DNA of 64,000 bases, taken from the NCBI RefSeq assembly GCF_022808815.1, contig NZ_JAKZLC010000002.1, positions 496,001 through 560,000 on the forward strand, written 5' to 3'. Source of the stretch: Geothrix paludis. GTDB taxonomy: Bacteria; Acidobacteriota; Holophagae; Holophagales; Holophagaceae. This document shows, in pieces, positions 39,676 to 63,270 of this stretch (positions are counted from its first letter, which is position 1; each line of letters begins with the position of its first letter). The position numbers and the translations under genes were made by a program. The notes beneath the pieces are model-generated. The model saw nothing but the letters and a program-made list of their open reading frames with translations. It did no database searches and had not been told where the DNA came from.

Positions 39676-42600
39676 ATGAGCTTCGCCCATCTCCACCTGC
39701 ATACCGAGCACTCGCTGCTCGACGGCCTGACCCGCATCCCTGATCTGGTGAAGAAGTGCCGGGCCTCGGGCATGCCCGCCGTGGCCGTCACGGACCACGG
39801 GAACATGTTCGGCATGATGAAGCTCTTCGACGCCTGCGAGAAGACGAAGGACGCCGAGGGCAACTGGGCCGTGAAGCCCATTCTCGGCTGCGAAGTCTAC
39901 GTGGCCCCCAAGACCCGCTTCGACCGGAAGCTGGAGGCCAAGAACCTCACGGGCGAGGAGGGCCTGGAGGACTGCGTGGATCCCAGTGGCAGCCGCGACG
40001 CAGGCTACCACCTGGTGCTGCTGGCCAAGAACCCGAAGGGCTTCGCCAACCTCTCCAAGCTGGTGTCAGCGGGCTTCACCGAGGGCTTCTACTACAAGCC
40101 CCGCATCGACAAGGACATCCTCCGGGAGCACAGCGAGGGCCTCATCGCGCTCTCCGCGTGCCTGGGCGGCGAGGTGCAGGCCCGCATCCTCCAGAACCGC
40201 CTGGACCAGGCCGAGCGCGTGGCCCGCGACTTCCGTGACGTCTTCGGCGATGACTTCTACCTGGAGATCCAGGACCAGGGCTTCGACAAGGAGAAGGAGA
40301 TCATTCCCTTCCAGCAGCAGCTCGCGGAGCGGCTGGGCATCCCGCTGGTGGCCACCAACGACGCCCACTACCTCAACCACGAGGACTCCGACCTGCACGA
40401 CACGCTGCTATGCATCGGCACGAAGACCACCAAGGCCAAGGAGAAGCGCATGCGCTTCTCCACCGACCAGTTCTTCGTGAAGACGCCCGAGGAGATGCGC
40501 GCCGTCTTCCCCGATCACCCGGAGTATCTGGAGCGCACCCTGGAGATCGCCGCCAAGGTGGACCTGTTCCCCATCACGCGGAAGCCCGTCACACCCCAGT
40601 TCCCCGTGCCCGACGGCTACGACCTGGAGTCCTACTTCGTCCATGTGGCCAAGGAGACCTTCGAGGCACGCATGGCCGAGTGCCGCCCGCGCTGGCAGGC
40701 CGGCACGCTGAAGCACCCCGAGGAGAAGTACCGCGAGCGCCTGGCCTTCGAGCTGGACATGATCCTCAAGATGGGCTTCCCGGGCTACTTCCTACTGGTC
40801 TGGGACTTCATCCGCAAGGCCCGGGAGATGGGCGTGCCCGTGGGCCCGGGCCGCGGTTCCGCGGCGGGAAGCATCGTGGCGTGGTCCATGAAGATCACGG
40901 ACATCGATCCCATGCAATACGATCTGCTCTTCGAACGCTTCCTCAACCCCGAGCGCGTCTCCATGCCCGACGTGGACATCGACTTCTGCCGCGACGGCCG
41001 CCAGCGGGTCATCGACTACGTCACCGAGAAGTACGGCCAGGACAAGGTCAGCAACATCGTCACCATCAACCAGCTCAAGACCAAGGCCGTCATCAAGGAC
41101 GTGGCGCGAGTCTTCGAGAAAGACTTCGCCTTCGCCAACAACCTCACCAAGCTGGTGCCCCAGGAGCCCGGCAAGCCCATCACCGTGGGCGAGGCGCTGG
41201 AGAAGAGCGACAAGCTCCGCGAGCTGTACGAGAGCGATCCCGAGGTGAAGAACATCCTCGATATCTCCGCCAAGCTGGAGGGCCTGGCCCGCAACACCGG
41301 GGTCCACGCGGCGGGCGTCATCATCGCGCCCGACGAGCTGACGCAGTTCGCGCCGCTCAGCATGGACAAGGACAAGAAGGTGATGGTGCAGTACACCATG
41401 ACCGAGGCCGAGCGCGCGGGCCTGCTGAAGATGGACTTCCTGGGCCTGGAAACACTCACCCAGATCGCCAAGACCCAGGAGGTCATCGCCCGGCGCCACG
41501 GCGCGCCCAAGGACATGACCAGCATCCGCACCTTCGACGACAAGAAGACCTTCGAGCTCTTCGCCGCCGGGGACACGGACGGCGTCTTCCAGTTCGAGTC
41601 CGGCGGCATGAAGCAGCTGCTCCGCCAGCTCGGCCCCGACCGCTTCGACGACCTCATCGCGCTCAACGCCCTCTTCCGCCCGGGCCCGCTGGGCGCGGGC
41701 ATGGGCACCACGTACGTGGAGCGCCGTCACGGCCGGGAGCCCGTGACCTACATGTTCCCGGATCTGGAGCCCATCCTCTCCCCGACCTACGGCGTGATCC
41801 TCTACCAGGAACAGGTCATGCAGATCGCCAGCCTCGTGGCCGGGTACTCCCTGGGCGAGGCGGACATGCTGCGCCGCGCCATGGGCAAGAAGGACAAGGA
41901 GAAGATGGCGAAGGAGAAGACCAAGTTCATCGAGCGGGGAGCCTCCCGCGGCTACGACAAGGCCAGGGTCGCGGAGATGTTCGACCTCATCGAGTACTTC
42001 GCCGGCTACGGGTTCAACAAGAGCCATAGCGCGGCCTATGCCATGGTGGCCTACGAGACCGCCTACCTGAAGGCCAACTACCCCGTGGAGTTCATGGCGG
42101 GCCTTCTCTCCACCAAGTCCGGCCGCACGGACGACGTGGCCAAGTACGTGCAGAACTGCCGGGAGCGCGGCATCGAGGTGCTGGGGCCCGACATCAACCA
42201 GTCGGCGCTCGATTTCACGGCGACCAGTGACCGGCAAATCCGGTTCGGATTCGCCGCGGTGAAAGGATTGGGAGAGGCTGCCTTGCAGGCCATCCTCGAA
42301 GCGCGCGAGGCCGAGGGCGGCTTCAAGGACCTCTTCCACGCGCTGAAGAGCACGGACCTCCAGAAGGCCAACCGCAAGGTGTGGGAGTCCCTCATCAAGG
42401 CCGGGGCCTTCGACAGCCTGGAGCCCAACCGGGCGGCGCTGGTCCAGGGCCTGCCGGACGCCATCTCCGCGGCCTCCCGCGGCACCGGCGACACGGGCAT
42501 GACCAGCCTCTTCGACGACGCGGAGATGGCCACCCTCAGCGAGGACTGGCGCGTGCCCGAGGGCATCGAGCCCTGGGATCGCCGCACCCGCTTGGCCGCG

Positions 42601-43311
42601 GAGCGCGAGGTGCTGGGCCTCTTCGTCAGCGGCCATCCCCTCGAGGAGTTCGCCGACGCCATCCAGGTGCACACGCACGGCACCTTGGCCAAGATCCTGG
42701 AGGACGTGGCCGCCGGGCGGCTGCGGGACCGCGGCGAGGTGACGCTGGGCGCCATGGTCAGCACCGTGGCCTTCAAGACCAACCAGAAGGGCGAACCCTG
42801 GGCCATCCTCCAGGTGGAGGACCTGGCCGGGAAGATGGAAGTGCTGCTCATGGCCAGCAAGTGGGATCCCCTCACCAAGAAGGCCACGCTCCGCCCCTTC
42901 GAGCGCTACCGGCACCTGGCGGTGCCCGAGGCCATGTTGCGCATCACGGGCGAGCTGCGGGTGGAGACCCTCCAAGCCAACGGCAATGGCAACGGAAACG
43001 GGGAAGCCGAGGAGGAAGAGGAGCAGACCGTGGTGAAGGTCTTCGCCACGGTGCTGGAGCCGCTGGAGTCCTTCCAGGGCCAGGGCTTCACGGGGGCCCT
43101 GGTACGCCTGCCCGTGGGCGAGTGCCCGCCCCGCCTGGAATCGATCCTCAAGGATTACCGGGGCGACCTGCCCGTGACCTTCGAATACCGCTCGAAGGAG
43201 GGCCTGGTGGCCCGCGTCCGGGCCGGCCGGGACCTGCGCCTCAAGCACGACCCCGACCTGGCGGAACGGCTCGCCAAGGATACGGGCTGCACCCTCACCT
43301 GGACCTACTGA
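39676..43311 (+). CDS. dnaE: DNA polymerase III alpha subunit
   Basis: A 1211-residue replicative polymerase, somewhat longer than the usual 1160. The N-terminal PHP domain begins HLHLHTEHSLLDG (about 5-17) with VTDHGNMFG. The catalytic palm has Asp432 and Asp434 in PDVDIDF. Later segments are VPVGPGRGSAAGSIV (nucleotide binding), the HhH region and a C-terminal OB fold (GEVTLGAMVSTV, about 1018) ending with a tau/beta-binding tail. A short Asn/Gly/Glu-rich insert (NGNGNGNGEAEEEEEQ, about 1103) is an oddity in the C-terminal part. It is followed by two atypical regulator genes. Confidence 0.97.
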   Translation: MSFAHLHLHTEHSLLDGLTRIPDLVKKCRASGMPAVAVTDHGNMFGMMKLFDACEKTKDAEGNWAVKPILGCEVYVAPKTRFDRKLEAKNLTGEEGLEDCVDPSGSRDAGYHLVLLAKNPKGFANLSKLVSAGFTEGFYYKPRIDKDILREHSEGLIALSACLGGEVQARILQNRLDQAERVARDFRDVFGDDFYLEIQDQGFDKEKEIIPFQQQLAERLGIPLVATNDAHYLNHEDSDLHDTLLCIGTKTTKAKEKRMRFSTDQFFVKTPEEMRAVFPDHPEYLERTLEIAAKVDLFPITRKPVTPQFPVPDGYDLESYFVHVAKETFEARMAECRPRWQAGTLKHPEEKYRERLAFELDMILKMGFPGYFLLVWDFIRKAREMGVPVGPGRGSAAGSIVAWSMKITDIDPMQYDLLFERFLNPERVSMPDVDIDFCRDGRQRVIDYVTEKYGQDKVSNIVTINQLKTKAVIKDVARVFEKDFAFANNLTKLVPQEPGKPITVGEALEKSDKLRELYESDPEVKNILDISAKLEGLARNTGVHAAGVIIAPDELTQFAPLSMDKDKKVMVQYTMTEAERAGLLKMDFLGLETLTQIAKTQEVIARRHGAPKDMTSIRTFDDKKTFELFAAGDTDGVFQFESGGMKQLLRQLGPDRFDDLIALNALFRPGPLGAGMGTTYVERRHGREPVTYMFPDLEPILSPTYGVILYQEQVMQIASLVAGYSLGEADMLRRAMGKKDKEKMAKEKTKFIERGASRGYDKARVAEMFDLIEYFAGYGFNKSHSAAYAMVAYETAYLKANYPVEFMAGLLSTKSGRTDDVAKYVQNCRERGIEVLGPDINQSALDFTATSDRQIRFGFAAVKGLGEAALQAILEAREAEGGFKDLFHALKSTDLQKANRKVWESLIKAGAFDSLEPNRAALVQGLPDAISAASRGTGDTGMTSLFDDAEMATLSEDWRVPEGIEPWDRRTRLAAEREVLGLFVSGHPLEEFADAIQVHTHGTLAKILEDVAAGRLRDRGEVTLGAMVSTVAFKTNQKGEPWAILQVEDLAGKMEVLLMASKWDPLTKKATLRPFERYRHLAVPEAMLRITGELRVETLQANGNGNGNGEAEEEEEQTVVKVFATVLEPLESFQGQGFTGALVRLPVGECPPRLESILKDYRGDLPVTFEYRSKEGLVARVRAGRDLRLKHDPDLAERLAKDTGCTLTWTY

Positions 43312-43339: not shown

Positions 43340-44059
43340 GTGATCCCCCTCTTCCTGCTGCCCGGCTTCGGCCACTGGGGCGCCCACCTGGAGGCCCTCC
43401 TGGCCCGGCCCGAGGGCTTGTGGATCCACGGCCCGGCGGGATCGGGGGTCTCGACGATTGCGGCAGAATTTGCCCTTCGTCGTAACCGGTCCAGGTTCGA
43501 AGCCGGTTCGGTGGAGGAAGGCGCCGCCTGGACCGCCACCCACCCCGGCGGCGTGGTGGCGGCCCGGGGTCCGATGCCCGCCGGGTTGAATTGCCTGGAG
43601 TTGCGCCTTCCCGCCCTGGACGAGGATCCCGACTGCCTTCCGGGGTTGCTGGCGGCCCTGGCGGAGGAGGAGGGCGTCCCCGCGCCTTGGCCCCCGGCCC
43701 TGGGAGCCCTGCCCTGCCCCGGCAACCTCCGGGAGCTCCGCAACCGGATGCTGCGCTGGAAGCTCCTGGGCCAGCTGCCGGAGCCCGAGCCGGCCGGCCC
43801 GCCCCGCTTCGAGGCCGAGGACCTGGCCACGAACCTGCACGACCTGGAACGCTTCCTCCTGCACCGGGCCCTGCGCCGGGCCTACGGTAACCGCGTGGAG
43901 ACCGCCCTCCGCCTGGGCGTGAGCCGCCGCCAGCTCTACCTCCTCATCCGCCGCCACGGGGATCCGGTCCGGGGCGAGGCGGCCTCCGGGGACCTGCCCC
44001 AGCGGATGAAGCGGCGCAGATCGGCACAAAACTCCAGTCCAGAGTCCGGCGCCCGATAA
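43340..44059 (+). CDS. Vestigial NtrC-like protein (short, Fis-type HTH)
   Basis: A 239-residue protein starting with GTG (GGAG 5 bases upstream). It has a P-loop-like GPAGSGVST (about 33-41) in which the essential Lys is Val, no GAFTGA loop and no clear Walker B. It retains a GNLRELRNRMLRWKLLG segment resembling the sigma-54 activator GNVRELEN motif, and a C-terminal Fis-type HTH (DLERFLLHRALRRAYGNRVETALRLGVSRRQLY). It looks like an enhancer-binding protein with its ATPase core stripped down; it probably binds DNA without activating sigma-54. It sits between dnaE and another degenerate NtrC-like gene. Confidence 0.68.
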   Translation: MIPLFLLPGFGHWGAHLEALLARPEGLWIHGPAGSGVSTIAAEFALRRNRSRFEAGSVEEGAAWTATHPGGVVAARGPMPAGLNCLELRLPALDEDPDCLPGLLAALAEEEGVPAPWPPALGALPCPGNLRELRNRMLRWKLLGQLPEPEPAGPPRFEAEDLATNLHDLERFLLHRALRRAYGNRVETALRLGVSRRQLYLLIRRHGDPVRGEAASGDLPQRMKRRRSAQNSSPESGAR

Positions 44060-44103
44060 CGGGGAGGTGCGGCCGGTCGGCTGCGGCTTGGATGTAATGG
44101 ACC

Positions 44104-45588
44104 ATGGCGACTCCCCTTCGGGTACTGGTGGTGAATGACGATCCTGGAATGCGGGATGGTGTGGCCTTGAGCCTGAAACGCTCGGGCCTCGCGGTGGACC
44201 TGGCCCGGGAGGGCGCCGAAGCCCTCCGGCTGGCCCACCAGGGCGGCTACGACGCCGTGGTGGCCGATCTCCACCCGGCCGGCATGGACGGCCTCGAGCT
44301 GTCGGCCCGCCTCAAGGCGGTCGATCCGGTCCTGCCCGTCCTGCTGATCGGGGCCGCCGAAGAGCCCGAGACCGCGCGCCTGGCCGCCTTCGAAGTCCTC
44401 TACCGACCCTTCAGCGCCGACGAGCTCAGCGCCGCGGTGCAGAAAGCCGTGGCGTCCGAAGGACACCTCAAGGCCGCCGAACCCTCCGAGGCGCCCCTCA
44501 CACTCACGCAGGACCCCGCCCTCGGAGAGACCCTGGCCATGGCCCGTCGCGCGGCGGACAGCCGCGCCACCATCCTCATCCAGGCGGAGAACGGCACAGG
44601 GAAGGAGCTCCTGGCCCAGCTCATCCACGGCACGAGCTCCCGCCACGGCGGTCCCCTGGTGACCCTCAGCTGCGCGGCCCTTCCCGAGGAGGCGCTGGAA
44701 GCCGAGCTGTTCGGCGCCGAGAAAGGCGCCCACCCCGGAGCGGCCCCGAAACCCGGCGCCCTGGAGCGGGCGGAGGGCGGCACCCTGGTGCTCGATGCGG
44801 TGGACGCCCTGCCTCCCGGCCTCCAGGGCCGGCTGCTGCGGATCCTCCAGGAGCGCGCGGGCAGCGGGCGTCCCGCGCCCATGGACGTGCGCCTGATCTC
44901 GCTCACCAGCCAGGACCTCCTCGCCGAGGTGAAGGCGGGCCGCTTCTCCGAGGACCTCTACTACCGCCTGAACGTGATCCCCCTGAACCTGCCCCCGCTG
45001 CGGGAACGGCCGGGGGACCTGAGCCTGCTGGCCGAGCACTTCGCCGAGCGCTACGCGCGGGAGAACGGCCGCGAGGTGCCCGAGCTGACGCCCAGCTTCT
45101 TCGCGGCGCTGGCCCGCCACCCCTGGACGGGCAACCTGCGCGAGCTGGAGAACGTCATCCAGCGCTGCGTGGTGCTGAACCAGGGCCACCGCCTCACCCA
45201 GCAGGACCTCCACTGGCTCATGCCCACCGAGGCTTTCGAGGGCCTGCCCCAGGACTCGCCCGCAGCGGCGCCCCTCGCCGCCGGGGCGCGCCAGGCCCCC
45301 GGCGTCTCTCCGCGGCCGGACGGAAGCCCGGTCCCCGGCGCCGTGCTGGCCGATCCCCGCAAACCCCTGGTGGGCCTGCCCCTCGGCACCCCCGTGACCC
45401 TGCCCCTGGGCCTGAGCCTGCCGGAGCTGGAGCGCTTCTGGCTGCTCTCCACCCTCAGCGCCCTCCGGGGCAACCGGACCCACTGCGCCACCCAGCTGGA
45501 CATCGCCCTGCGCACCGTGCGGAACAAGATCAACGAGTACAAGGCCGACGGCTTCGCCATCCCGCCCAGCCAGCGCGGCGGCGAGTAG
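44104..45588 (+). CDS. NtrC-like response regulator with non-canonical sigma-54 motifs
   Basis: A 494-residue protein: receiver (about 5-115), AAA+ domain (about 135-365) and Fis HTH (about 440-490). The receiver keeps the phospho-acceptor Asp55, but the conserved Lys is Arg101 (YRPF) and the conserved Thr/Ser appears to be Gly (LIGAA). Walker A is AENGTGKE (160-167). The GAFTGA loop that contacts sigma-54 is GAHPGA (208-213), and the Walker B Glu is Ala232 (LVLDAVD). It is therefore unlikely to be a normal phosphorylation-driven sigma-54 activator; it may be a repressor, as TyrR or HupR-like proteins are, or a sigma-70-linked regulator. It has no partner histidine kinase nearby. Confidence 0.9.
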   Translation: MATPLRVLVVNDDPGMRDGVALSLKRSGLAVDLAREGAEALRLAHQGGYDAVVADLHPAGMDGLELSARLKAVDPVLPVLLIGAAEEPETARLAAFEVLYRPFSADELSAAVQKAVASEGHLKAAEPSEAPLTLTQDPALGETLAMARRAADSRATILIQAENGTGKELLAQLIHGTSSRHGGPLVTLSCAALPEEALEAELFGAEKGAHPGAAPKPGALERAEGGTLVLDAVDALPPGLQGRLLRILQERAGSGRPAPMDVRLISLTSQDLLAEVKAGRFSEDLYYRLNVIPLNLPPLRERPGDLSLLAEHFAERYARENGREVPELTPSFFAALARHPWTGNLRELENVIQRCVVLNQGHRLTQQDLHWLMPTEAFEGLPQDSPAAAPLAAGARQAPGVSPRPDGSPVPGAVLADPRKPLVGLPLGTPVTLPLGLSLPELERFWLLSTLSALRGNRTHCATQLDIALRTVRNKINEYKADGFAIPPSQRGGE

Positions 45589-45611: not shown

Positions 45612-47624
45612 CTAGGGCCGGGGGTCCGCGGCCTCCAGCATCTCCCCGTACCGGCTGTCCCGAAGGATCCCTTCGAAGTCGCTGGAGGTGAGGATCTCCC
45701 GGATGGCGCGGACCTTGTCCTTGGCCTGGGCGTAGTAGGCCTGGGCGATGCGGAAGCCCATGAAGTAGCCGAGGTCCGCCGGATGCCCCTCGCGCTGGCT
45801 GCTGCCGTAGAGCCAGCGGGAGGCGTCCGTCCCACCCATCTCTGCCCGGAACTTCCGCCAGAGCTCCGCCTCGTGCGCGTAGCCGTAGGCGTAGGCGGCC
45901 TGGTTGAAGGTGCCCTCGGCGATGAGCGAGGCGAGGAAGTCCGCGGAGCCCTCGTGGAAGGCCTTCCCAAGCAGCGTGCGCGTCTCGTGGGTCTGCTGGA
46001 AGTGGATCAGTTCGTGGGCCACGATGCTGGGCAGGTCCGCGGGGGTGTGGAGGACCTCCCGGTGCCAGGGGCCCATCTCGTCCATGGGCACGCCGGGCCC
46101 CCCTCCGAACAGGTCGACGCCCAGCAGCAGGCCGTTGGGCGATGAGGTCCCGCCCGAGTCCAGCGCCCCCACCACGAAATAGACGTCGGGGAACATCGCG
46201 TCGGCATAGAGCGCCTTGAAGGCCCAGAAGGAGCGCCGCGCGACAGCCTCCACCCCGGCGGCCTTCAGGGTGTTCCCGCGGATGGCGGCGAAGTAGCGCG
46301 GGTGCCGCTGGATGGCGTCGAGGAGGTTGGCGGCGCTCCGGATGCGGTTCGGGATGAAGTCCTGCAGCCCGGCGCTGCCCCGGTCGAGGTACTCCCGCCT
46401 CAGGAGGCCCGCGGGATCCGGAGAGGCCGGGAGCTTTGCGTAGGCCTTCCAGAAGAGGTCCACATCGGTGGCGATGAACCGCGCCCCATCGGGATCCGAA
46501 TGGACGGCCCGGAAGCGCCGCGCGTTGGCTTCCGCCGCGGCCAGCACTCCTGACCAGCGGGGATCGGCGTGGAGCGAGGCCAGGTCGGCGTCCTCCCGGA
46601 GGGCGGCCGCCTCGTGGAAGCCCTGATCCAGGGCCTTCTGGAGCAGGCCGAAGGCGGCGTCCCCGTGCCCCGCCAGGGCATGGGCGCAGGCCCCCTGGTA
46701 GGGGTGCTGGGCGCCCTTCAACCCGGCCGCGAGGGCCCGGTCGTAGAGGTCGGCGGCGCAGGCCGGATCCTTGGCGAGGAGGGCCCGGTGCCCCTGCTGG
46801 GCGAACTCCGCCGCGGAGGGGGCCAGCGGCGCCTCGGCCTGGGCCCGCAGGGCCGCGTAGGCCTCCGCCAGGGCCGTGAGGAGGTCCGCCTGGGCGTGGA
46901 GGTCCTCCGTCCCGCGGAAGGCCGAGGAGGCATGGGGCTCCAGGGCGCGCACGGCCTTCTCCCAGACGGGCCAGGCCGGCAGGGTCCGGATGCGCCCGCC
47001 CACCATGGCGCCGAAGGCCTGGAGGAGGTAGGCCTCGCTGCGGGGTTCCGGCGACCGGCCCGGCTGGACGGCCTCCACGAAGACGGGGACGATCATGTCG
47101 GCCACGGCGGCGGGCCGGGGTCCGAAGCCCAGGCGCGCCGCGACCCAGGCCTCGCTGCCCACCACGCCCAGCGCGGAATCCGCCGGGAACCAAGTGCCGG
47201 TGACGGGGTCCCGCACCTCCAGCCAGCGATGGTCGTTGTGCCGGTAGCCGAAGACGCTGAAGCCCTTCCCGCTCTCGGCCACCTTGGCCCGGGCCGAGGC
47301 CTGGCGGCGCTCCGAGGGGGCCTGGAGGTTGATCTCCTGTACCCAGCGGGACTCGAAGCCGCCGGCTTTCAGCAGGTTCTGGAGCACCCTGGCATGGTCG
47401 GCGCAGTTGCCCATGCCCCGCGCCAGGATCTCGTCCACCGTGCGGTTCCGGTAGTCCGTGGCCACCCAGGGCATGCGCTGGTGGAGGTGGTCCACCAGGG
47501 CCCGCACCCGGGCCTCCGCCGTCCCCGGCCGCGCCAGGACGGCCATGGCCTCGGTCCGCGGCAAGGCCGGCGTCTCCTGGGCCACCAGGAGCGCGGGCGG
47601 GAGCAGCAGCATCAAACGCTTCAT
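45612..47624 (-). CDS. Exported fusion protein: transglutaminase-like domain plus gluzincin protease domain
   Basis: A 670-residue exported protein (signal peptide to about QETPA). N-terminal transglutaminase-like papain fold with a full triad, Cys74 (GNCADHARV), His132 (NDHRWLEV) and Asp149 (FPADSALG). Then a TPR-like helical middle (about 230-370), then a C-terminal domain with HELIH (His537, Glu538, His541) and a downstream FHEGSADFLASLIAEG, the pattern of the DUF2268-type metalloproteases. Two different hydrolase folds joined in one secreted chain are unusual. It follows the shorter transglutaminase-like gene with a 4-base overlap, so they form an operon. Confidence 0.82.
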   Translation of the reverse strand: MKRLMLLLPPALLVAQETPALPRTEAMAVLARPGTAEARVRALVDHLHQRMPWVATDYRNRTVDEILARGMGNCADHARVLQNLLKAGGFESRWVQEINLQAPSERRQASARAKVAESGKGFSVFGYRHNDHRWLEVRDPVTGTWFPADSALGVVGSEAWVAARLGFGPRPAAVADMIVPVFVEAVQPGRSPEPRSEAYLLQAFGAMVGGRIRTLPAWPVWEKAVRALEPHASSAFRGTEDLHAQADLLTALAEAYAALRAQAEAPLAPSAAEFAQQGHRALLAKDPACAADLYDRALAAGLKGAQHPYQGACAHALAGHGDAAFGLLQKALDQGFHEAAALREDADLASLHADPRWSGVLAAAEANARRFRAVHSDPDGARFIATDVDLFWKAYAKLPASPDPAGLLRREYLDRGSAGLQDFIPNRIRSAANLLDAIQRHPRYFAAIRGNTLKAAGVEAVARRSFWAFKALYADAMFPDVYFVVGALDSGGTSSPNGLLLGVDLFGGGPGVPMDEMGPWHREVLHTPADLPSIVAHELIHFQQTHETRTLLGKAFHEGSADFLASLIAEGTFNQAAYAYGYAHEAELWRKFRAEMGGTDASRWLYGSSQREGHPADLGYFMGFRIAQAYYAQAKDKVRAIREILTSSDFEGILRDSRYGEMLEAADPRP

Positions 47625-48799
47625 GGCCGGGCCCAGAAGGCGGCGGGATCATGGGTGATGAGGCCTCCGGCGGCATCCCGGGCGGGTCGTGGCGGGAAGC
47701 CGAGGCCGTCCAGGGTCACGTAGCGGCGCTCGGCCCGGGACTCGTAGCCGTAGGCGCTCTCCACCGGGCAGGTGATCCGCACCAGGTTCTTGGCCATGTA
47801 GGCCTTGTAGGTGGCCGGGCTCTCGGGGCGCCCGTTCCAGTTGGCGCCCTTCGAGAGCTCCAGGGGCCCACCGGTGACGAGGCGCTCGCGCACCTCGGCG
47901 ATGGCGAGGGGGCGGCCCTGGCCGTCCGTGAAATACGCCTCCATGGTGGGATCCATGTAGAGCCACTGACTCAGGTCGTTGGACCACACGGTGGTGATCA
48001 CGTGGCAGTCCGGGTCCTTCTCATCCAGGGGCTGGCAGGTGACCTGGCGGGACTTGAAGCCCATGGCAAGGTAGGCCTCGTTGAGGATGGTGGCCATCAT
48101 GCGGCAGTTGATCCCGCGCTTCTCCATGCGGCAGACCTCCAGCAGGTGCAGAGCGTTCATGGGCTCGGGGTTCTTGGAGTTGCCGTCGTGGCGGACCTGG
48201 GCGTGGACCCAGTGCATGAGGTTCACGATCCGCTCGAACTCGGGGCCGCTGCCGGCCACCTCGTCCAGGCGGCAGACCTTCCGCAGGGCCACCAGGTCCG
48301 GCGCGTCCTTGGCCTGGTAGGCGAAGGCCGGGGCCGGGCTGCCGGCGCCGGGCCCGTAGTCCTGGAAGTGCCGGAGGATCCCCACGAAGTCGCCCCGCGA
48401 GCGCACGATGCCCTCGAGCCAGAGGAAGCCCGACTCCTTCCGTAGGGGATCCAGGTCCGTGTCCGCGCTGAAGGTCGTCCAGTCCTTGAGGCCCTCGCCG
48501 ACTGCCGTGCCCAGGAAGGCCAGGGCCTCGCCGCGGCGGCCCAGGAGCGAGGCCGCGCAGGCCATGTTGTAGTGCACGCCCGCCCGGGTCTCGGCGCCGA
48601 GCTGCGTGAAGCCGGGGGACTGGGCCCGGGCGGCCAGGACCTTCAGGGCCTCCTCGAACTTCTTCTCTTTCCACAGGTCCTGGATGTGGACGTTCTCCGC
48701 CTGAAGCTCCTGAGGCGGCGGGGGCACCTGGGCCCATAGGGCGGTCGAAATGAACACGGCGAAAGCCAGGCCCAGCAGGGCCAGCCGGAATCGGCGCAT
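47621..48799 (-). CDS. Exported TPR plus transglutaminase-like protein
   Basis: A 392-residue exported protein (MRRFRLALLGLAFAVFISTALWA) with a TPR-like N-terminal part (FEEALKVLAARAQ, VHYNMACAASLLGRRGEALAFL) and a transglutaminase-like domain with Cys232 (GINCRMMA), His266 (DCHVITTVW) and Asp283 (YMDPTM). The triad is complete, so peptidase, transglutaminase or deamidase activity is possible. It is upstream of and overlapping the fusion gene; both probably process peptides in the periplasm. Confidence 0.82.
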   Translation of the reverse strand: MRRFRLALLGLAFAVFISTALWAQVPPPPQELQAENVHIQDLWKEKKFEEALKVLAARAQSPGFTQLGAETRAGVHYNMACAASLLGRRGEALAFLGTAVGEGLKDWTTFSADTDLDPLRKESGFLWLEGIVRSRGDFVGILRHFQDYGPGAGSPAPAFAYQAKDAPDLVALRKVCRLDEVAGSGPEFERIVNLMHWVHAQVRHDGNSKNPEPMNALHLLEVCRMEKRGINCRMMATILNEAYLAMGFKSRQVTCQPLDEKDPDCHVITTVWSNDLSQWLYMDPTMEAYFTDGQGRPLAIAEVRERLVTGGPLELSKGANWNGRPESPATYKAYMAKNLVRITCPVESAYGYESRAERRYVTLDGLGFPPRPARDAAGGLITHDPAAFWARP

Positions 48800-61626: not shown

Positions 61627-63270
61627 ATGTCAATGCATCATGGACCTTACGCATTCCATTCCCGCCAGACCTCCGGAGTCCGTTTTCGTTTCGACCCAGT
61701 TCAAGGCCGGAGGCACCGGTCGCTCGCGGCCCTCGTGTCCGAACTGCTCCTGAAGCGGACTGAAATGAATGCCATTCTCGACACGACTCCAAACGCCGTC
61801 TGCATCCTGTCCAAGGACGGGGTCACCCGATGCAATCCCGCTGCCCTCCGGATGTTTGGTGCCACGTCCCTCGATGAGCTTCGGGACACCTTCGGAAGGC
61901 ATGTGGAGGGGTTCGCCCTTCGCTGGCCAGACAGCCAGCTCCCCCTCCGCAAGGAGGAGCGCCCGCTCACACGCGCCCTCTCGGGGGAACGGCTGACCGA
62001 AATTGTTCTGGCCACCCACGCCGGGACCGGCGATGAAATCATCCTCCGGATCACGGCCGCGCCCATTCTGAACATGGGCCGCATCATCGGTGCCGTGGGC
62101 GTCCACTCGGATATCACCTGGGGAAGGCGGGCGGGAGCTTCCTCTTCCCCATCTGGCCAGGAGCCGCTGATGGGGAGCGGGTGGCCAGGCCAACCCATGC
62201 ACCCGCGCTCGAAGGAACAGGCACTCCGGGAACAGGCGGAAGCAGAACTCCACAGGGCTCACACGGAGATACAGGAGCTGAAGAAGCATCTTCAGGCGGG
62301 GCACGCGTACCTGTTCCAGGAGACCAACCGCACCTACAACTTCGGTGAGGTGATCGGACAAAGCCGCTGCCTGGAGGACGTTTTCTACCGGGTCGAAGCC
62401 GTGGCACCGCAGGATTCGACGGTGCTGCTGCTGGGCGAGACGGGAACGGGCAAGGGACTGGTGGCCCGCGCCATCCACAGCAGGAGCCTGCGCAAGCACC
62501 GCCCCCTCGTCACTGTCAACTGCACCGCCCTGCCCGGCAACCTGATTGAAAGCGAGCTCTTCGGGCGCGAGAAGGGCGCCTTCACGGGGGCCAGTTCCCA
62601 GCAGCTGGGCCGATTCGAACTGGCCGACAAGGGCACCATCCTCCTGGACGAGATTGGCGATCTGCCTTTCGAGCTGCAGGCCAAACTGCTGCACGTCATC
62701 CAGGAAGGTGAGTTCAGCCGCCTGGGCAGCGCGAAGACGGTGAAGGTCGATGTCCGCATCATCGCGGCCACGAACCGGGACCTCTACGAGGAGATCCGGC
62801 TGGGCCGCTTCCGGGAGGATCTGTTCTACCGGCTCAACATCTTTCCCATCACCGTGCCCCCCCTGCGGGAGCGCAAAGAGGACATCCCGCTGCTCGTCGA
62901 CTATTTTCTTGATAAATTCAATCGCAAGCTTGGCAAAAACATTAGAACGGTCACCAACGGCACCATGGATGACCTCATGGCCCACTCCTGGCCCGGCAAT
63001 GTGCGGGAGCTGGAGAGCGTCATCGAGAGGGCCGTGATCATCTCCAAGGGCACCACCTTGCAGGTGCTGGATCATTTCGAGGCTCCCTCCCTGGCCGGGC
63101 CGCAGGATGAAGGGAAACCGCTGGTCGATCTGGAGCGCGACTACATCGATCAGGTGCTGCGGAGGACCAACTGGAGGATCGAGGGCAGCAAGGGGGCGGC
63201 CCGCATCCTCGGCCTGAATCCGAGCACCCTCCGCGGCCGGATGCGGAAGGAGGGCATCCACCGCCCCTGA
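61627..63270 (+). CDS. PAS-domain sigma-54-dependent transcriptional activator
   Basis: A 547-residue NtrC-family activator without a receiver. N-terminal PAS domain (about 48-170, ILDTTPNAVCILSKDGVTRCNPAALRMFG), a coiled linker (about 195-230), AAA+ domain with Walker A GETGTGKG (270-277), the intact GAFTGA loop (317-322) and Walker B LLDEIG (Asp341-Glu342), then a Fis-type HTH near the C-terminus (WRIEGSKGAARILGLNPSTLRGRM). All the motifs needed to activate sigma-54 are present, unlike the gene at 44104. Start 61627 follows a GGGGGG run; 61588 is possible. It lies between two target-like promoters that share motifs. The PAS ligand is unknown. Confidence 0.94.
   Translation: MSMHHGPYAFHSRQTSGVRFRFDPVQGRRHRSLAALVSELLLKRTEMNAILDTTPNAVCILSKDGVTRCNPAALRMFGATSLDELRDTFGRHVEGFALRWPDSQLPLRKEERPLTRALSGERLTEIVLATHAGTGDEIILRITAAPILNMGRIIGAVGVHSDITWGRRAGASSSPSGQEPLMGSGWPGQPMHPRSKEQALREQAEAELHRAHTEIQELKKHLQAGHAYLFQETNRTYNFGEVIGQSRCLEDVFYRVEAVAPQDSTVLLLGETGTGKGLVARAIHSRSLRKHRPLVTVNCTALPGNLIESELFGREKGAFTGASSQQLGRFELADKGTILLDEIGDLPFELQAKLLHVIQEGEFSRLGSAKTVKVDVRIIAATNRDLYEEIRLGRFREDLFYRLNIFPITVPPLRERKEDIPLLVDYFLDKFNRKLGKNIRTVTNGTMDDLMAHSWPGNVRELESVIERAVIISKGTTLQVLDHFEAPSLAGPQDEGKPLVDLERDYIDQVLRRTNWRIEGSKGAARILGLNPSTLRGRMRKEGIHRP

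Follow-up and report, generated by a model that had tools for sequence, protein, structure and literature searches.

Decay of the signalling and ATPase domains of a tandem enhancer-binding protein in Geothrix lacking flagellar genes

The EBP1–EBP2 locus and its distribution

EBP1 and EBP2 are adjacent genes on the same strand of a 64,000-nucleotide stretch of Geothrix paludis DNA (Holophagaceae; contig NZ_JAKZLC010000002.1, positions 496,001 to 560,000; hereafter the window), taken from a 3.4 Mb draft genome of nine contigs. They encode relatives of bacterial enhancer-binding proteins (bEBPs), the activators of sigma-54, and both are degenerate at motifs of that family. Across Holophagaceae the pair persists, and the motif state of EBP2 co-varies with the presence of flagellar genes, with relaxation specific to particular domains of the protein. 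The features of the locus are collected in Table 1.

Table 1. Features of the EBP1–EBP2 locus in window positions. pN/pS is the ratio of nonsynonymous to synonymous variation; the first or only value refers to the clade that contains the window and the second to flagellated Geothrix.
Feature	Position	Strand	Description
EBP1	43340..44059	+	239 residues, GTG start; AAA+-like core without P-loop Lys, followed by Fis-type helix-turn-helix (HTH); compact
EBP1 degenerate P-loop, GPAGSGVS	43430..43453	+	Val37 at the Lys position (sequence); Lys absent from 68/68 orthologues
EBP1 Fis-type HTH (HTH_8)	43838..43942	+	Domain match; pN/pS 0.142
EBP2	44104..45588	+	494 residues; receiver, sigma-54 AAA+ domain, Fis-type HTH; AAA+ and receiver motifs degenerate in the window clade
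EBP2 receiver	44122..44439	+	Asp55 kept, Thr replaced by Gly83, Lys by Arg101; pN/pS 0.641 vs 0.060
EBP2 AAA+ (Sigma54_activat)	44506..44985	+	Walker A Lys167 kept; pN/pS 0.338 vs 0.073
GAHPGA replacing GAFTGA, EBP2 residues 208–213	44725..44742	+	Sequence, motif table
Walker B Asp231-Ala232 replacing Asp-Glu, EBP2	44794..44799	+	Sequence, motif table
EBP2 Fis-type HTH	45418..45540	+	Domain match; constrained, pN/pS 0.129 vs 0.131
dnaE, DNA polymerase III alpha	39676..43311	+	Upstream neighbour in the window's sub-lineage only; directly upstream in 13/68 genomes

EBP2 has the receiver, AAA+, and Fis-type HTH order of sigma-54 activators, and its matches to Response_reg (60.3 bits), Sigma54_activat (162.6), the AAA lid (74.1), and HTH_8 (23.5) all exceed their cut-offs. 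The Walker motifs, sensors I and II, the arginine finger, and the receiver Asp, Thr, and Lys are considered here in their established roles, and GAFTGA is described as the loop with which bEBPs contact sigma-54. In addition to the substitutions recognized in the initial annotation (Table 1), the sensor-I Asn of the window protein has become Ser. The arginine finger, the sensor-II Arg, Walker A Lys167, and receiver Asp55 are all retained. The open reading frames (ORFs), domain matches, and sequence confirm the positions and motif changes of both genes as first described, and the motif losses support the accompanying prediction that both proteins should be incapable of ordinary sigma-54 activation.

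The P-loop stretch of EBP1 reads GPAGSGVST, with Val37 in place of the Walker A Lys, and its HTH_8 match (31.1 bits, cut-off 22) covers residues 167–201. In an AlphaFold2 model built from 23 sequences (pLDDT 78.8, pTM 0.59), residues 1–147 form an AAA-like core, for which the alignments with NtrC1 and FlrC score Z 9.7 (root-mean-square deviation 2.8–3.0 over 139–144 residues, the best NtrC1 alignment giving 2.8 over 144) and the alignment with FleQ scores Z 9.5. The aligned chains comprise 245–247 residues, with one NtrC1 entry of 385. A clamp loader chain scores nearly the same (Z 9.6), and thus the fold alone does not single out bEBPs; Foldseek matches to the model are weak, with large deviations. 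Kinship is established by a 27-bit sequence match to ZraR, spanning the lid and HTH, together with the Fis-type HTH. EBP1 is thus a shortened bEBP relative without the P-loop Lys and, judging from its degenerate P-loop, we infer that it is ATPase-dead.

The family sample comprises 77 genomes. A search at E 0.001 gave EBP1 in 71 of them, and three (G042, G060, and G062) were dropped because they yielded weak paralogue matches only, leaving 68/77. The gene is absent from the three genomes of the genus designated g2 (G001–G003, 0.9–1.2 Mb) and from six drafts that are 64–88% complete (the three dropped genomes, G054, G074, and G076). The 16 genomes sampled from the rest of the class yielded no match, and the 37 matches in a phylum sample of 396 genomes all lie within Holophagaceae, with none elsewhere. 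The named contigs bearing orthologues (23 loci, among them L121, a paralogue match only at 32%) are those of Geothrix, other Holophagaceae, and Acidobacteria metagenome-assembled genomes.

None of the 68 orthologues carries Lys at the P-loop position, which is occupied by Val in 49, Ala in 8, Arg in 4, Leu in 4, Thr in 2, and Ser in 1. Orthologues at paired loci are 229–251 residues long, about the length of the window protein. The initial annotation had described EBP1 as a remnant, a description that does not hold given orthologues of the same length in 68 genomes, and a truncated leftover of a recently broken gene is ruled out on the same grounds. Among the genomes searched, this conserved, P-loop-less relative of bEBPs occurs in Holophagaceae only.

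A full-length EBP2 lies behind EBP1 on the same strand, at a gap of 19–102 bases, in 77 of 81 EBP1 loci (a count that takes some genomes twice); the exceptions are one split EBP2 (L038), one missing EBP2 (L047), and two that are truncated where the contig stops (L082 and L096). This fixed tandem (77/77 loci with a full-length EBP2), together with full constraint on the DNA-binding part, favors the earlier proposal of a DNA-binding pair, the pairing being a prediction. Chance resemblance is excluded, as both proteins are homologues of established domains conserved over one bacterial family.

Loss of motifs, flagellar genes, and selection by domain

No FlhA (PF00771) match was obtained in 22 of the 77 genomes, and no flagellin (PF00669) match in 21. 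Both are missing from 18, namely the eight species of a clade that includes the window (the window clade), five genomes of the genus designated g6, the three of g2, and the drafts G047 (85% complete) and G054 (76%). Besides the window species, the window clade contains Geothrix sp. SG200, G. terrae, G. fuzhouensis, G. oryzisoli, G. campi, G. fermentans, and G006. G. fermentans is non-motile.

EBP2 is readable in 68 genomes, 13 without either flagellar marker and 55 with at least one. All 13 in the former group are degenerate, and 53 of the 55 in the latter are intact at GAFTGA, the Walker B Asp-Glu, and the receiver Asp, Thr, and Lys. The remaining two are G033, which has SAFTGA and is otherwise intact, and G075, whose EBP2 is cut by a contig end. 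G063 is counted as intact because the position altered in it, the Walker A Lys, lies outside those tested; contamination of this draft (L085) is possible, as it has two flhA copies and the contig coordinates of one coincide with those of the copy in G040. The EBP2 ORF of the draft genome G014 is split. In draft G047, EBP1 is followed by a convergent brkB with 147 bases between the alignments (L174, 5950–6900), and EBP2 was not found there, the best match being a paralogue (3e-72).

On the EBP1 tree, the 13 genomes with a degenerate EBP2 form two monophyletic groups of eight tips (0.93) and five tips (0.97). All eight members of the window clade have lost the sigma-54 loop, the Walker B Glu, the sensor-I Asn, and the receiver Lys, and all eight retain the Walker A Lys, the arginine finger, and the sensor-II Arg; the receiver Asp is retained in 5/8 and the Thr in 2/8. 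All five g6 proteins have lost the loop, the Walker A Lys, the arginine finger, the sensor-I Asn, and the receiver Asp and Thr (the Asp column being less certain owing to an insertion in that region), and they retain the Walker B Glu, the sensor-II Arg, and the receiver Lys. The tally is two degenerate lineages, one apparent deletion (G047), and the lack of both genes in g2. The initial annotation named intact orthologues, with recent decay in this strain alone, as evidence that would count against it. This applies in part: EBP2 does have intact orthologues, but the decay spans an eight-species clade and a second genus, EBP1 is without the P-loop Lys in every orthologue, and the motif table across the family rules out a strain-specific event.

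The polymerase factor itself is retained. rpoN (PF04552) is present in 73/77 genomes, including the window genome and all 13 with a degenerate EBP2, and sigma-54 has therefore not been lost. The window genome encodes 14 sigma-54 activators, 13 of which are readable at the loop (L006 was missed). Twelve carry GAFTGA or a mild variant (GSFTGA, GAFSGA, GAFTDA, or GAYTDA), the same as in the flagellated orthologues (G011 and G035) where an orthologue exists, and EBP2 alone has lost it. Four activators of this genome (L001, L008, L009, and L011) have a GAFTDA or GAYTDA loop; for L008 and L009, flagellated relatives share it. The window itself holds a second sigma-54 activator with an intact GAFTGA (62350–62850).

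Selection was compared by pooled pN/pS with codon bootstrap between the window clade (eight genomes) and flagellated Geothrix (22 of 37 genomes with a non-degenerate EBP2). Because the sequences are related and, in the more divergent pairs, synonymous changes approach or reach saturation, the values are comparative and not absolute rates: relative to flagellated Geothrix, pN/pS in the window clade is raised 10.6-fold in the EBP2 receiver (95% interval 5.7–25) and 4.6-fold in its AAA domain (2.7–8.9), it is 0.342 vs 0.140 in the lid and 0.665 vs 0.427 in the linker between AAA+ and HTH, and the ratio for the HTH is 0.98 (0.36–2.5). The corresponding values for EBP1 are 0.338 vs 0.490 in the N-terminal part, 0.181 vs 0.368 in the lid-like part, and 0.142 vs 0.153 in the HTH, such that its three segments stand at 0.49–0.93 of the flagellated value and show no relaxation.

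Branch lengths follow the same pattern. With the EBP1 topology fixed, the mean depth of the window clade is 0.413 for the receiver vs 0.025 in flagellated Geothrix, about 16-fold, and 0.041 vs 0.083 for the HTH, about half. The stem of g6 is long for the receiver (0.71) and AAA domain (1.07) and short for the HTH (0.11); within g6, pN/pS values of 0.161, 0.297, and 0.137, respectively, denote constraint. All 13 degenerate ORFs are open from the start through the HTH. An internal start yielding a free HTH protein was considered and rejected, as a start with a sequence resembling a ribosome-binding site occurs in one of the eight window-clade genes and none is common to them. In the window clade, relaxation affects the parts of EBP2 that serve signalling and motor action and, mildly, its linker, sparing its HTH and EBP1.

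Proposed fate of EBP2 and competing explanations

EBP2 is intact where flagella are encoded and lost or degenerate where they are not, as expected of a flagellar bEBP. On the basis of this co-occurrence, it is most likely an activator of the flagellar regulon in flagellated relatives. The explanation that we favor, with reasonable though not strong confidence, is that a sigma-54 activator, probably flagellar, has lost activation and persists, alongside EBP1, as a DNA-binding regulator that does not depend on an ATPase. The ancestral EBP2 would have been a normal two-component sigma-54 activator, as it still appears in most Holophagaceae, most likely serving the flagellar regulon. Once flagella were lost in the window lineage, phosphorylation, ATP hydrolysis, and sigma-54 contact would no longer have been needed, such that the receiver and AAA+ motifs could decay and the C-terminal Fis-type HTH was spared. 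The strong preservation of the DNA-binding parts suggests that the pair probably still controls genes without the ATP-driven sigma-54 machinery. We infer that both genes are expressed as proteins that bind DNA and interact with each other, full-length EBP2 most likely acting together with EBP1, and that the pair most likely represses or regulates sigma-70 promoters with targets other than flagella.

Several observations weigh against this explanation. SAFTGA in G033 and the replacement of the Walker A Lys by Pro in G063 both occur in genomes with flagellar markers. The window EBP2 reaches no NCBIfam cut-off; its score to FlbD is 296.5 bits against a cut-off of 750, a value obtained with the degenerate protein, and the AtoC model outscores FlbD at 311.9 bits (cut-off 714). 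Whole-protein identity to G011 and G035 is 70% for EBP2 and 73–94% for the seven activators common to both, with 69% and 49% for those matched in G011 only; EBP2 is thus not set far apart, two other activators lying at 69% and 73–76% and one at 49%. Where the pair and flhA share one contig, they are separated by at least 83 kb in eight Geothrix genomes (G009, G011, G013, G017, G020, G021, G033, and G035). Control of flagellar genes by EBP2 is a prediction from co-occurrence, and the EBP1–EBP2 interaction is putative.

The promoter searches likewise offer no support. Within 300 kb around flhA in five genomes, the sigma-54 consensus is not enriched, with 9 relaxed matches vs 11 for a reversed control and 2 strict matches. 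Genome-wide, TGGCAYN5TTGCW occurs 0–1 times per genome and its reversed control 0–2 times (G000, G006, G011, G017, and G035). This near-zero count is found despite rpoN and 9–17 activators in each of these genomes. As the consensus hardly occurs genome-wide, either the promoter of the group has diverged, as it may have, or the search pattern is unsuitable.

The correlation itself is founded on two lineages with a degenerate EBP2 and on two losses, and hence might be due to some other trait that both lineages have given up. That motif loss follows such a trait, lost along with flagella, is unlikely, even with so few lineages and with sigma-54 promoters not found at flagellar genes; it is opposed by the aflagellate draft G047, which also lacks EBP2, and by the reduced genus g2, which lacks EBP1 and EBP2 alike.

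A pseudogene decaying slowly after flagellum loss, with the conservation of its HTH due to chance or lag, would account for the window-clade receiver, whose pN/pS of 0.641 is close to that of the linker (0.665) and which is therefore close to unconstrained, and for the missing EBP2 of G047. It is nevertheless improbable in light of an HTH that keeps a ratio of 0.98 in the same ORF in which the receiver and AAA domain are relaxed about 11- and 5-fold, the open frames of all 13 degenerate genes, and the purifying selection acting on every domain of the g6 protein.

A comparably low probability attaches to EBP2 as an ATP-binding, oligomerizing regulator of sigma-70 promoters that has lost receiver signalling, in the manner of NtrC proteins without GAFTGA, published cases of which are described in excerpts of PMC10274813. 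All eight window-clade proteins retain the Walker A Lys, arginine finger, and sensor-II Arg, and their AAA pN/pS (0.338) lies below that of the linker. However, the Walker B Glu is lost in the same eight proteins, and none of the five g6 proteins retains the Walker A Lys or the arginine finger, so that ATP binding would not be needed for the retained role in g6.

A functional tie to DNA replication through dnaE, as the initial annotation had suggested, is highly improbable: EBP1 begins 28 bases past the end of dnaE in the window and dnaE is directly upstream in all eight window-clade species, but it adjoins the pair in only 13/68 genomes vs 39/68 for an HlyIII-family membrane protein, and EBP2 is intact in five of those 13 (G011, G015, G020, G026, and G035).

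The 13 genomes with dnaE directly upstream are all Geothrix, and the upstream gene is of another kind or undetermined in 16/68, a count in which some upstream flanks are short. The HlyIII assignment stems from a Pfam PF03006 match of one member (148.6 bits), the rest being assigned by tblastn with a reading frame over-extended at its start as the query. The conservation of the pair behind dnaE, which the initial annotation had proposed to check, thus holds for the pair, kept across the family, and not for the position of dnaE, which is local. No common binding site upstream of EBP1 is evident by eye, and the upstream gene itself varies. Downstream in the window, two adjacent minus-strand genes with transglutaminase-like domains, one of them also DUF2268/GldB-like (45612–48799), separate EBP2 from brkB; in many relatives, EBP2 is followed immediately by brkB.

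Implications and relation to known bEBPs

Beyond the explanation favored here, in which a sigma-54 activator became an ATPase-independent regulator, a broader and more tentative possibility is that the pair is a two-protein DNA-binding system whose core job was never sigma-54-dependent. EBP2 would then converge on the ATPase-less state of EBP1 after flagellum loss, and the still decaying window clade and the degenerate but selected g6 might represent early and late stages of one repeated path. Flagellum loss would provide a simple cause for an odd pair of broken regulators and distinguish the portion of a sigma-54 activator on which selection continues after activation is no longer required; with two independent lineages, the path from such an activator to a plain DNA-binding regulator becomes testable. 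Among the open-licence literature matches listed, there is no paper on EBP1 and EBP2 or on flagellar regulation in Geothrix, nor an instance of an orthologue that decayed repeatedly, in selected domains, as flagella were lost and that adjoins a conserved P-loop-less partner.

EBP2 shares its domain order with NtrC-family bEBPs (including FlrC, FleQ, and FlbD), and 53 of its orthologues are intact and found with flagellar genes; likewise, the AAA-like core of EBP1 aligns with NtrC1, FlrC, and FleQ (Z 9.7–9.5), with the clamp loader tied at 9.6. In contrast to that family, the window EBP2 is without GAFTGA, the Walker B Glu, and two receiver residues, and EBP1 is short of about 100 core residues and the P-loop Lys.

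bEBPs without GAFTGA are already known. The excerpted account in PMC10274813 places three of them, Caulobacter NtrC, Rhodobacter capsulatus NtrC, and Vibrio cholerae VspR, at sigma-70 promoters. As in these, EBP2 of the window has lost the sigma-54 loop and retains a DNA-binding HTH, which is under selection. In the Caulobacter and R. capsulatus proteins, as excerpted, the loop is deleted, whereas in EBP2 it was lost in two lineages of an otherwise intact family. EBP2 further differs from the cases in that account in that the loss occurs only where flagella are gone, is accompanied by decay of receiver and ATPase motifs, and takes place beside a second, predicted ATPase-dead partner, EBP1.

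A parallel for flagellum loss is offered by Lysobacter enzymogenes, in which fleQ has been lost; according to excerpts of PMC9927559, FleQ expressed in this bacterium binds and represses a non-flagellar promoter and requires its HTH to do so. Flagellum loss is tied in both systems to a bEBP that is flagellar in the case of FleQ and probably so in the case of EBP2, and that acts, or for EBP2 is proposed to act, on non-flagellar promoters. On the basis of these excerpts, fleQ is deleted in L. enzymogenes, whereas aflagellate Geothrix keep EBP2 and only its receiver and ATPase domains decay. With the window-clade motifs for phosphorylation response, ATP hydrolysis, and sigma-54 contact lost and both HTHs kept under selection, a sigma-54-free DNA-binding pair is the simplest reading of EBP1 and EBP2, as described for GAFTGA-less NtrC proteins (PMC10274813) and consistent with the Lysobacter case (PMC9927559), as far as the excerpts describe the two.

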